From Williamsia sp. (lineage in GTDB: Bacteria; Actinomycetota; Actinomycetes; Mycobacteriales; Mycobacteriaceae): 42,098 nt of DNA. The translations under genes and the position numbers were made by a program. Below, in pieces: positions 21,526 through 29,070 of this stretch; position 1 is the stretch's first letter, and each line of letters starts with the position of its first letter. Under the pieces are notes generated by a model that worked only from the letters and a program-made list of their open reading frames with translations, made no database searches and was not told the origin of the DNA. Location of the stretch: the NCBI RefSeq assembly GCF_016462415.1, contig NZ_JAEMTF010000024.1:9283-51380 (forward strand), read 5' to 3'.

Positions 21526-21594
21526 CGGACGCGGTACCCCCGACCCCAGCCGGTTAGCACGATGTCGGACGGCGAGTCGAGGCCTCTGCCCGAG

Positions 21595-21665
21595 ATGACC
21601 CTGGCGCACTTCCCCAGTGCCAGGTGCATCATGACGACCCTGGCGCACTTCCCCCGCGCCAGGTG
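21595..21665 (+). ncRNA. Tandem hairpin leader of rsmH (candidate mraW RNA motif)
   Basis: Two near-identical units 40 bp apart. Each forms an 8-bp stem CCTGGCGC/GYGCCAGG (21599-21606 with 21616-21623; 21639-21646 with 21656-21663) and a 9-nt loop ACTTCCCC plus A or C. One stem position changes from G-U to G-C between copies, which keeps pairing. Location in the 5' leader of rsmH (mraW) in an actinobacterium matches the published mraW RNA motif; I assign it by position and a partly remembered consensus. Confidence 0.65.
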
Positions 21666-21807
21666 CGTCGCCGGGCAGAGACCCGGACTCACCGCTCGAA
21701 CCCACCGGCCCCGCCGACAGCACGGGCACATCCCGTGCTGCCGGCGACCGGGGTCGGCACCACAGCACCACCGACGGAACATCCCGTCGCAGGCGGAGAG
21801 GCGTTCC

Positions 21808-25790: not shown

Positions 25791-25835
25791 GTCGAAACGG
25801 ATGATTCTCAGTCGATCAGGAGGTGTGTGGGAAGC

Positions 25836-27428
25836 ATGGCCGCCGCCGCACGCCACACCGACCCGACCCGACCGGTGCACGTCGAACCCCACCCGGTACA
25901 GATCCTCGCGACGTCGTGTCACGCCCGACTCGATCTCATCGGCGCCGCCACCGGGGAGCTCGGGGTCACCGGCGTGACCCTGCGCGCACAGGACGCCCTG
26001 CCCGGGGATCTGTTCGCAGCCCTGCCCGGCGCGCGCGCACACGGCGCACACTTCGCCGCCGACGCGATCGGCGCCGGGGCGGTCGCGGTCCTCACCGACC
26101 CTGCCGGTGCCGCGATCGTGTCCTCCGCCGTCCCCGCCGGTGCGGATCTCGCAGTGCTGGTGCACCCCGACCCGCGCAGTGTCCTGGGAGCGGTCAGTGC
26201 CCGGGTCTACTCCAATCCCTCACTGCGCCTGCGTCTGATCGGCATCACCGGCACCTCCGGCAAGACGACATCGGCCTACCTCACCGAGGCGGCGTTGATG
26301 GCCGCCGGCCACACGGTCGGGCTGATCGGCACCGTCGAGACGCGGATCGCCGGTGTGCGGCAGAAGAGTTCGCTCACCACACCGGAGGCGCCAGCGCTGC
26401 AGGGCCTCTTCGCCGCGATGCTCGAGAAGGGTGTCGACACCGTGGTGATGGAGGTGTCGAGTCACGCCCTGGCGCTGGGCCGGGTTCGCGGGAGCCACTT
26501 CGCCATCGGCGCGTTCACCAATCTCTCGCAGGACCATCTCGACTTCCACCCGACGATGGCCGACTACTTCGACGCGAAGTCGCTGCTGTTCCGCTCCACG
26601 TCGTCCGAACACGCCAACCGGTCGGTCGTCTGCGTCGATGACGAATGGGGTCAGCGGATGGCCGAGATCGTGGGCCAGGGCGTCGTCACCGTCTCCACCC
26701 GCACGAGCGCCGCGCAGTGGTTCGCCGGCCCGTCGGAGTCCCGCGATGACGGTTCGCAGATCGTCGCCGTCCGGGATCCGGTGGGTGAGACCCACACCAT
26801 GGCTGTCCCACTGCCCGGTCGCTACAACGTCGCGAACGCGCTGATCGCCGTCGCCGTCGCCCACACGGCGGGCGTGTCCGTCGCCGATGCGATCGCGGGG
26901 ATCGGCGACGTCCGTGTGCCCGGCCGTGTCGAACTCGTCGACGCCGGTCAGGATTTCCTCGCGGTCGTCGACTACGCCCACAAGCCGGCCGCACTCGACG
27001 CCGTCATCTCCACCCTGCGGGCCCAGACCGCCGGCCGCGTCGCGGTGGTCGTCGGCGCCGGTGGCAATCGCGACACCGGCAAGCGGCCGGTCATGGGCGC
27101 GGCCGCCGCGCGCGGCGCCGAGTTGGTCGTCATCACCGACGACAACCCCCGAGACGAGGACCCGGCGGCGATCCGGGCCGCGGTGGTCGCGGGCGCGACC
27201 GAGGTCGCCGAGGCCGACCGACCGGCCGGATCGGAACCGATCGTCGAGATCGGCGACCGTGCTGCGGCCATCGCCCACGCCGTCGCCTGGGCACGCACCG
27301 GCGACGTCGTCCTGGTGGCCGGCAAGGGACACGAGACCGGTCAGGAGATCCACGGGGTGAAGACGCCGTTCGACGATCGTGCAGTACTCGCCGAGGCACT
27401 GGCGACACGCGGGAACGGGGCAGGATGA
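25836..27428 (+). CDS. murE: UDP-MurNAc-L-Ala-D-Glu:meso-diaminopimelate ligase
   Basis: A 530-residue Mur ligase that adds meso-DAP to the cell-wall precursor. The N-terminal UDP-binding domain includes VTLRAQDALPGDLFAALPG; the ATP loop is GITGTSGKTTSAYL; then TTPEAPALQ, MEVSSHALALGR, FTNLSQDHLDFH, and the C-terminal specificity motif DDNPRDEDP, whose DNPR Arg binds the free end of meso-DAP. All expected motifs are present. AGGAGG (25818-25823) lies 12 bases before ATG 25836, slightly far; GTG 25827 is an alternative. Its TGA overlaps the ATG of the murF remnant, where a full murF would be expected. Confidence 0.95.
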   Translation: MAAAARHTDPTRPVHVEPHPVQILATSCHARLDLIGAATGELGVTGVTLRAQDALPGDLFAALPGARAHGAHFAADAIGAGAVAVLTDPAGAAIVSSAVPAGADLAVLVHPDPRSVLGAVSARVYSNPSLRLRLIGITGTSGKTTSAYLTEAALMAAGHTVGLIGTVETRIAGVRQKSSLTTPEAPALQGLFAAMLEKGVDTVVMEVSSHALALGRVRGSHFAIGAFTNLSQDHLDFHPTMADYFDAKSLLFRSTSSEHANRSVVCVDDEWGQRMAEIVGQGVVTVSTRTSAAQWFAGPSESRDDGSQIVAVRDPVGETHTMAVPLPGRYNVANALIAVAVAHTAGVSVADAIAGIGDVRVPGRVELVDAGQDFLAVVDYAHKPAALDAVISTLRAQTAGRVAVVVGAGGNRDTGKRPVMGAAAARGAELVVITDDNPRDEDPAAIRAAVVAGATEVAEADRPAGSEPIVEIGDRAAAIAHAVAWARTGDVVLVAGKGHETGQEIHGVKTPFDDRAVLAEALATRGNGAG

Positions 27429-27913
27429 GCGACACCGGGATCTGGATCCTCGACACCGGTGGCCGGGACGGGACCGACATCGACCACGACACCGTCCGCG
27501 GACTGATCCGCGATCTCGTCGGGATGACCCGCGATCGGGGTGTCGGACGCAGCTGGGCGGTGCTCGCCGAGCTCGACGCGCCCGAGATGACCGACGAGAA
27601 CGACCGGGCACTGGCCCACGACCGGGTCGGTCGGCTCGCCGTCCGCCTCGCGGTCGACACCGTCATCAGCGTGGGGGAGTCGCGTTCGGTTCGGGCTCTG
27701 CACCAGGGAGCGGTGATGGAGGGGTCGTGGGGCGAGGAGGCCCTGCTCGTCGCCGATGCCGCCGAGGCTCTCGAGATCCTCGACGCCCAGATCGGCGACG
27801 GTGACGTCGTGCTCATCGCGGCCGGTCGGGCAGGCGATTTGTCGGCGGTGACGAACGCACTGTTGGATAGCGACCGATGGACTGCGACCCTGACGGCGGC
27901 GCCCGAACGGTGA
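27425..27913 (+). CDS. Truncated MurF: stand-alone C-terminal (ligand-binding) domain
   Basis: A 162-residue protein in the murF slot. From about residue 42 it follows the MurF C-terminal domain: GRSWAVLAELD, AHDRVGRLAVRLAV, VISVGESRSVRALHQGAVME, GSWGEEALLVADAAEAL and GDGDVVLIAAGRAGDL. The family's GEM, EHDRIGRLAVRL and KASxxxGL motifs are recognisable but partly changed (KAS replaced by IAAGR). The N-terminal UDP-binding domain and the whole ATP-binding domain with its GxxGKT loop are missing. The DxYNANP motif that should open the domain is not recognisable in the first 40 residues. The ATG overlaps the murE stop by 4 nt and codon use is normal, so it is probably translated. It cannot itself be a D-Ala-D-Ala ligase. 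Confidence 0.75.
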   Translation: MSDTGIWILDTGGRDGTDIDHDTVRGLIRDLVGMTRDRGVGRSWAVLAELDAPEMTDENDRALAHDRVGRLAVRLAVDTVISVGESRSVRALHQGAVMEGSWGEEALLVADAAEALEILDAQIGDGDVVLIAAGRAGDLSAVTNALLDSDRWTATLTAAPER

Positions 27914-27972: not shown

Positions 27973-29070
27973 GTGACGCAGATCTTGATAGCGGGCGCCG
28001 TCGCGTTGGCGGTGTCGATCCTGCTCACGCCGGTCCTGATCAAGTTCTTCTCCCGGCAGGGCTTCGGCCAGGAGATCCGGGTCGAGGGGCCGCAGAGCCA
28101 TCAGACCAAGCGCGGCACACCGTCGATGGGTGGCGTGGCCATCATCGTCGCGCTGTGGGCCGGCTACTGGGCCTCGCACATCGTGGGTGCCTTCAACGGC
28201 GGCCAGGGACCCAGCGCCTCCGGTGTGCTGGTCCTGTCGCTGGCGACGGTCCTCGGCGGTGTCGGCTTCCTCGACGACTTCATCAAGATCCGCAAGGGCC
28301 GCAACCTGGGGCTGAACAAGACCGCCAAGTCGGTCGGTCAGCTCATCGCGGCGCTGCTCTTCGGAGTCCTCGCCCTGAACTTCCGCAACGGCAACGGCGA
28401 CGCCCCGGCGAGCGCCAACCTGTCCTACGTCCGCGACATCCCCGCGGTGACGCTGGGGTCGGTGGCGTTCGTCATCTTCTGCTGGCTCGTCGTCGCGGCC
28501 TGGTCCAACGCGGTCAACTTCACCGATGGACTCGACGGACTCGCCGCCGGCTCGATGGCCATGGTCCTGGGGTCCTACGTGCTGGTCACGTTCTGGCAGT
28601 ACCGCAACGCGTGCGCGGGCGGACCCAAGGTCGGCGGCGACGTGAGCCCCGGCTGCTACCACGTCCGCGACCCGCTCGACCTCGCCCTCATCGCGGTGGC
28701 CGGCGGCGGTGCCTGCCTCGGCTTCCTGTGGTGGAACGCCGCGCCCGCGAAGATCTTCATGGGCGACACCGGGTCGCTGGCACTCGGCGGCATGCTCGCC
28801 GGTCTGTCCATCACCACTCGCACCGAACTGCTCATGGTGGTCGTCGGCGCGCTGTTCGTCGCCGAGATCGTCTCGGTGGTCCTGCAGATCGCGTTCTTCC
28901 GGACCACCGGACGCCGTGTGTTCCGGATGGCGCCGTTCCACCACCACTTCGAACTCGGGGGCTGGGCCGAGACCACGGTCATCATCAGGTTCTGGTTGCT
29001 GACCGCCATCGCCTGCGCGCTGGGTCTGTCCCTGTTCTACAGCGAGTTCCTGGCCTCCAACGGTGGCTGA
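27973..29070 (+). CDS. mraY: Phospho-MurNAc-pentapeptide transferase
   Basis: A 365-residue polytopic enzyme that moves phospho-MurNAc-pentapeptide onto undecaprenyl (or decaprenyl) phosphate to form lipid I. Diagnostic blocks: [37 protein letters not shown] (catalytic Asp cluster), [14 protein letters not shown] and [15 protein letters not shown] (HHH motif). About ten membrane helices are evident. The start is GTG 27973, 59 bp after the MurF fragment; nearby ATG 27959 is out of frame. Its stop overlaps the murD start by 8 bp. The precursor it uses requires a complete MurF encoded elsewhere. Confidence 0.96.

Follow-up and report, generated by a model that had tools for sequence, protein, structure and literature searches.

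The window analysed here, a stretch of 42,098 nucleotides (nt) of Williamsia sp. DNA (contig NZ_JAEMTF010000024.1), contains a division and cell wall (dcw) cluster in which the place of murF, between murE and mraY, is taken by an open reading frame (ORF) of only 162 amino acids (aa). An original prediction, made from the letters of this DNA, had described the ORF as the C-terminal domain of MurF only, without the UDP-binding domain, the ATP loop or the DxYNANP motif, and had noted that its start overlaps the murE stop. Both descriptions were borne out, the first by hidden Markov model (HMM), motif and profile-profile results, and the second by the 4-nt ATGA at the junction of the two genes (Table 1).

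The truncated ORF at the murF site and a complete MurF elsewhere

In HMM searches, the ORF covers only the end of the MurF model TIGR01143 (positions 342-418 of 418) with 34.7 bits, far under the whole-protein cut-off of 288.6 bits. Its match to Pfam Mur_ligase_C (PF02875) scored 23.1 bits, under the gathering cut-off of 28.4 bits, and among four remnants given to this model three matched weakly and one did not match. Neither Mur_ligase (PF01225, the UDP-binding domain 1) nor Mur_ligase_M (PF08245, the ATP-binding middle domain with the GKT loop) matched the ORF protein. A BLASTP comparison between the ORF and this genome's own full MurF was not significant (17.3 bits, E 0.28), and a remnant profile compared with PDB sequences returned no Mur ligase, only chance matches. 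Profile-profile alignment with hhalign placed the ORF on MurF domain 3, with a probability of 100 for native full-length MurFs and 94.3 for the second MurF described below, versus 10.5 for MurE and 0.6 for MurD (the MurD control being a weak one, as it was one sequence entered twice). Judged by these profile comparisons, the ORF is a homologue of the third domain of MurF rather than of the corresponding domain in other Mur ligases. It cannot be an active MurF by its sequence, as it lacks domains 1 and 2, DxYNANP, and KAS.

Table 1. Coordinates of the ORF, its parts and its neighbours in the window.
Feature	Position	Strand	Remarks
Stand-alone MurF domain 3 protein, predicted non-catalytic remnant of the native dcw murF	27425..27913	+	162 aa; HMM and profile-profile matches
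ATGA start/stop overlap with murE, 4 nt	27425..27428	+	Also in 41/41 full-length native murF genes examined
Residues 1-41, corresponding to the DxYNANP region of native MurF	27425..27547	+	Motif absent, poor conservation; mean top-residue fraction 0.46 (49 genomes)
Conserved core, residues 65-105 (HDxxGRxxVRL ... QGAVMEGSWGxE)	27617..27739	+	Mean top-residue fraction 0.82 (49 genomes)
EGSWG, residues 99-103	27719..27733	+	49/49 clade genomes; 0/30 second MurFs examined
Residues 131-135, where native MurF has KAS	27815..27829	+	K, A and S lost
murE, upstream neighbour (ORF as listed)	25827..27428	+	Domain 3 fused to the MurE C-terminus in 8/49 clade genomes
mraY, downstream neighbour	27973..29070	+	4-nt overlap of native murF (41/41) replaced here by a 60-nt gap

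The original prediction held that another MurF locus must exist, and named a search of the genome for a second ORF with the MurF N-terminal and ATP-binding domains as a check. Such a locus was found in the genome assembly (4.95 Mb in 243 contigs, 99.98% complete, 2.11% contamination): a full MurF of 442 aa with all three domains, at G000:C104:13308-14633, scores 389.7 bits with TIGR01143 and is the only MurF over the cut-off in a profile search of the contigs. Its gene is divergent from the D-Ala-D-Ala ligase gene ddl (L024:8117-10637, G000:C104). The catalytic motif positions of this second MurF are invariant among the nine MurFs aligned, and the second MurFs of related genomes contain DxYNANP (30/30) and K[AG]S (28/30 by the pattern used). 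The genome has three PF01225 matches, in murE, murC and the full murF, and searches with PF02875, PF08245, PF01225, and TIGR01143 found no lone MurF N-terminal half in it. The earlier suggestion that the ORF works in trans with a split N-terminal part is unsupported, given that the full MurF brings an intact domain 3 of its own and that these searches turned up no lone N-terminal half. Two further proteins of this genome have matches to the Mur ligase middle domain, at G000:C138:98139-99281 (in a frame of 708 aa) and G000:C209:19852-20469 (in a frame of 729 aa).

Distribution of the remnant and origin of the second MurF

We searched a family sample of 301 genomes, drawn evenly from a larger group, for the second MurF. 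It was found at 525-900 bits in 49 of them, and at no more than 311 bits in the others among the matches listed. The 49 genomes, which were found by profile and not by the EGSWG pattern, belong to six genus groups (g1, 8; g9, 29; g11, 9; g7, g13, and g17, 1 each), and the clade that they form includes Williamsia, Gordonia, and Jongsikchunia. At the native site all 49 have domain 3 only, either as a separate ORF of 142-215 aa (41 genomes) or as an in-frame fusion to the C-terminus of MurE (8 genomes), and none of them has a full murF there. The fragment is present in all eight genomes of the genus that were searched, and its closest named relative is in Williamsia maris (93%, in a search that may omit records very near the window). 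Among the matches listed, those in the family outside the remnant groups have open frames no shorter than 353 aa. An assembly deletion of a gene that is full-length in relatives, which had been named as a possible refutation, is itself refuted by the truncated form in 8/8 genomes of the genus and 49/49 of the clade.

A second set of 80 named loci, which overlaps the set of 49 genomes, comprises 33 separate remnants (16 Gordonia, 14 Williamsia, 1 Jongsikchunia, 1 Mycobacterium, and 1 labelled Kitasatospora arboriphila), six Gordonia fusions, and 41 full murF genes. As these loci were found with patterns that include MEGSWG, the presence of EGSWG in 41/41 of their full-length MurFs is biased. 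The dcw loci in the records of Kitasatospora arboriphila NRRL B-24581 and Acidobacteriaceae bacterium BOG_194 (L092 and L141) fall in this family, and these records are probably mislabelled or contaminated.

In a phylum sample of 396 genomes, the best matches to the second MurF outside the clade are in another class, with G768 at 536 bits (66% identity) and several families at 420-455 bits, while no genome of its own family outside the clade has a match to it that passes E 1e-85. Among the matches listed, the 536 bits to the best other-class MurF compare with no more than 311 bits to own-family MurFs outside the clade. A tree of 76 rows separates the native MurFs (together with two other-class rows) from the second MurFs and 15 other-class rows with support of 100/97; within it the second MurFs cluster together (93/85), with G768 and G761 closest to them (85/84). 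Further, ddl is divergent from the second murF in 30/30 clade loci and in 12 of the 13 other-class loci tested (17 were fetched). Based on this tree grouping and the shared divergent arrangement, the ddl-murF pair was apparently acquired horizontally from another class of Actinomycetota.

These data suggest the following sequence of events. The common ancestor of Williamsia, Gordonia, and Jongsikchunia would have gained a divergent ddl-murF pair from another class, and the imported MurF, with every catalytic motif, would have taken over catalysis. The native murF between murE and mraY would then have lost domains 1 and 2 and kept its start position and domain 3, which in turn would have shed the catalytic DxYNANP and KAS and held a native-type core (HDxxGRxxVRL, GAVMEGSWGxE) under selection at the protein level. 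We regard this account of the origin, an imported pair and a native murF cut down to domain 3, as very likely. The original prediction had proposed that full-length MurF moved elsewhere and that the domain was kept for a new role; retention for a role agrees with the conservation described below, whereas MurF seems not to have moved but to have been replaced by one of other-class type. Apart from the clade, a second MurF-like gene beside a full native murF is present at G220:C42:52062-53414 (in L221, group g22), possibly an intermediate state.

A domain 3 ORF at the same site was also found in Mycobacterium sp. MYCO198283, where it is 139 aa long, with MEGSWG and without DxYNANP or KAS. The MraY of this strain groups with that of Mycolicibacterium (support 100/100), and the reduction there is apparently independent of the one in the Williamsia/Gordonia/Jongsikchunia clade. 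No other MurF over the cut-off was found in MYCO198283. The best match (191.8 bits) is a 507-aa Mur ligase with middle and third domains and no PF01225 match, encoded beside a ddl-like gene, and it may be the working MurF of this strain. At this locus (L195:287-3706), a hydrolase-like ORF, the 507-aa Mur ligase with its seemingly membrane-bound N-terminus, and the ddl-like gene occur together. A plasmid search with the 507-aa protein returned only matches of less than 60% identity and no record covering 80% of the protein.

More remnants were sought in the genus of MYCO198283, where 94 of 98 genomes gave a match. Three candidates (G346, G398, and G349) were rejected, as all keep DxYNANP and KAS, and G398 and G349 are partial. 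At L259 (G346:C1:2561200-2567200), a Mycobacterium-group murF is split over shifted reading frames with all motifs kept. In a class sample of 256 genomes (184 with a match), G842 has the sole short frame outside the clade among the matches listed, and it too was rejected, since it lies at a contig end and keeps DxYNANP.

Conservation of the remnant and its link to murE

The remnants have lost what full-length MurFs keep for catalysis. DxYNANP, and likewise K[AG]S near the C-terminus, is found in 0/33 named remnants versus 41/41 full native MurFs. In their place a compact region is conserved: 23 positions are identical in at least 46 of the 49 clade genomes, all of them within residues 42-127 and most densely within residues 65-105. 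The core HD..GR..EGSWG is present in all 49, as is EGSWG itself, which is preceded by M in 48 and by Q in G191 (QEGSWG). Codons vary at every position of the motif except M and W, and such variation under invariant residues indicates that the protein, and not a DNA or RNA element, is conserved. For 15 close pairs of genomes, the ratio of nonsynonymous to synonymous substitution rates (dN/dS) of the remnant was 0.035-0.315 (median 0.12); in the same pairs it was 0.052-0.136 (median 0.09) for murE and at most 0.050 for mraY. With its catalytic residues lost and the protein under purifying selection, the ORF is, as far as its sequence tells, a pseudoenzyme.

Conservation differs along the protein. 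In pairs with an MraY identity of 0.88-0.93, the core is conserved to the same degree in the remnants (0.84) and in full-length MurFs (0.82), while conservation has been lost in the remnants in the DxYNANP region (0.32 versus 0.77) and in the KAS region (0.39 versus 0.74). EGSWG is absent from all 30 second MurFs examined. Of 19 native MurFs from other genera, hand-picked without use of the motif from the places listed by the second-MurF search, 14 contain it; of the five without it, two belong to group g3 and two to g5, and one has the variant EGSWD. EGS[WF] was found in at least 12 of 16 loci that were chosen among the stronger listed matches in other families, and three were without it. Since EGSWG is found in most of the native MurFs examined and is absent from the second MurFs, it looks like an old MurF feature in the class that is not needed by MurF catalysis as such. 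On this pattern of conservation, domain 3 of the native MurF probably has a second, non-catalytic role. The native MurFs of the small-genome groups g3 and g5 (L204, L212, L214, and L215) are without the EGSWG core common to the rest of the family sample.

Full native murF overlaps both murE and mraY by 4 nt in 41/41 loci; because the remnant shares the start overlap with murE, the original start position of murF appears to have been kept. The murE overlap is retained in 37 of the 41 separate ORFs (of the other four, three begin at a later position and one begins immediately past the murE stop). The mraY overlap is mostly gone, with two of the 41 separate ORFs overlapping (-3) and the others showing gaps of 0-169 nt. 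The eight MurE-domain 3 fusions form one clade with support of 100/99, which indicates that the fusion happened once. The six named fusions keep the DNPR motif in the MurE part and MEGSWG in domain 3, and in none of the eight are both ligases complete as in a full bifunctional MurE-MurF, domain 3 being the only part of MurF present. Within Gordonia, the fusions occur in a sub-clade at L103, L106, L119, L131, L153, and L163, and in G015, G062, G078, G171, G181, G191, G263, and G269 (partly the same genomes).

Possible functions of domain 3

The second task of domain 3 would most likely be to make a protein-protein contact, either one that holds the MurE-MurF-MraY end of the precursor pathway together or one that links this end to a regulator. 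The ORF would then represent this adaptor released from its enzyme; it would be produced beside MurE and, in one Gordonia lineage, as part of the MurE chain. Three features lead us to favour an adaptor: the gene has remained with murE, the two were joined in a single fusion event, and a compact core has been preserved in place of the catalytic residues. An adaptor function tied to MurE is nevertheless offered tentatively, at somewhat below even confidence; the whole explanation, in which MurF was imported and the native domain 3 retained as an adaptor, comes close to an even call, leaning slightly against. A broader proposal views domain 3 of actinobacterial MurF as a module of the machinery for peptidoglycan precursors that is separable and non-catalytic and that was exposed by the import, freed, fused once, and reached again independently in Mycobacterium; it is possible and is put forward with more reserve.

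Several observations weigh against the adaptor. Purifying selection on the remnant is weaker than on mraY (dN/dS of mraY at most 0.050). In wider pairs (MraY identity 0.84-0.88), unlike in the closer ones, core conservation is lower in the remnants, 0.70 versus 0.82 in full-length MurFs, and 0.60 versus 0.81 when the columns of the scan pattern are left out, so the core appears constrained and yet somewhat relaxed or lineage-specific. The murE overlap was inherited from full-length murF (41/41) and the fusion to MurE was a single event; for these reasons neither of them proves contact with MurE. The Mycobacterium case is one genome, in which no other MurF over the cut-off was found. Further, in a study of M. 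tuberculosis, fragment complementation reportedly gave no interaction among the four Mur synthetases (PMC3605390; figure corrected in PMC10965061). The same study reports contacts of M. tuberculosis MurF with NamH, DdlA, PknA/B, and division proteins (PMC3605390). These contacts make NamH, the kinases, and the division proteins candidate partners as well, and direct contact with MurE is not the sole option.

A different adaptor role is conceivable, in which the remnant binds the imported MurF and lends this foreign enzyme the native docking surface missing from it, which would allow the enzyme to join the native complex. The imported MurF is without EGSWG (0/30) while the remnant keeps it (49/49), and the two co-occur in 49/49 genomes, as this idea would have it; however, the imported gene and the remnant gene are not close together, and co-occurrence is also expected if the import merely let the native murF shrink. 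We consider this role unlikely.

Domain 3 of Mur ligases generally takes part in substrate binding, and the remnant might accordingly be a ligand sensor, one of the roles raised in the original prediction, that binds a pathway metabolite (e.g., D-Ala-D-Ala or UDP-MurNAc-peptide) and tunes MurE. A conserved core would suit such a sensor, but the motifs with the clearest connection to catalysis are missing and none of the present results suggests a ligand, which makes it a rather improbable function.

It is very unlikely that the ORF persists for operon reasons only, that is, by coupling the translation of murE and mraY or by providing spacing or an RNA element. The 4-nt murE overlap kept in 37/41 separate ORFs fits translational coupling, but the mraY overlap is mostly lost, codons vary under an invariant peptide, and the MurE fusion abolishes the gene boundary and yet the peptide stays. 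A decaying pseudogene or an assembly error can practically be dismissed, for although the protein ends vary freely and the Pfam score is under its cut-off, the frame is open in 49/49 clade genomes, 23 positions are the same in at least 46 of them, and the median dN/dS is 0.12, in keeping with the earlier claim that the ORF is not a decay product.

Among known systems, the nearest is MurF itself (TIGR01143), with which the remnant shares a homologous domain 3, the site between murE and mraY, and the start overlap with murE, and from which it differs in being without domains 1 and 2, DxYNANP, and KAS. PAP11, a MurE-like subunit of the plastid RNA polymerase, is a case in which the Mur ligase fold is kept as a structural subunit; unlike the remnant it is a whole ligase, not one domain, and it belongs to an unrelated complex. 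In MurT/GatD, a Mur-ligase-like protein likewise acts as a subunit with a partner, but MurT is an active subunit that has retained the ATP domain. The bifunctional MurE-MurF of Bordetella (PRK11929/NF008896), according to PMC6420597, resembles the Gordonia fusions in carrying MurF-derived sequence at the MurE C-terminus, whereas its fused MurF is whole and active and theirs is only the predicted non-catalytic domain 3. The same study reports that this MurE-MurF binds MurG and proposes a scaffolded complex (PMC6420597). Our searches of open-licence PMC papers turned up neither a stand-alone MurF domain 3 nor a fusion of MurE to domain 3. The remnant can be described as a putative pseudoenzyme derived from a single Mur ligase domain.

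Whether the cytoplasmic Mur ligases form a functional complex is a long-standing question on which published data conflict (PMC3605390 vs PMC6420597). Here evolution appears to have parted MurF catalysis from the other task of domain 3 and to have kept the latter in a small protein with a defined conserved surface (EGSWG, HDxxGR), whose removal would not remove MurF catalysis. If this is true, full-length MurF in the family would be bifunctional, with a second function that has been overlooked. The import also represents an apparent cross-class replacement of an essential dcw-cluster enzyme together with its D-Ala-D-Ala ligase neighbour.

Elsewhere in the window, at about 21590-21680 between mraZ and rsmH, an ORF translation contains the short peptide repeat TLAHFPxARC twice, which is likely a repeated DNA element 5' of the true rsmH start.
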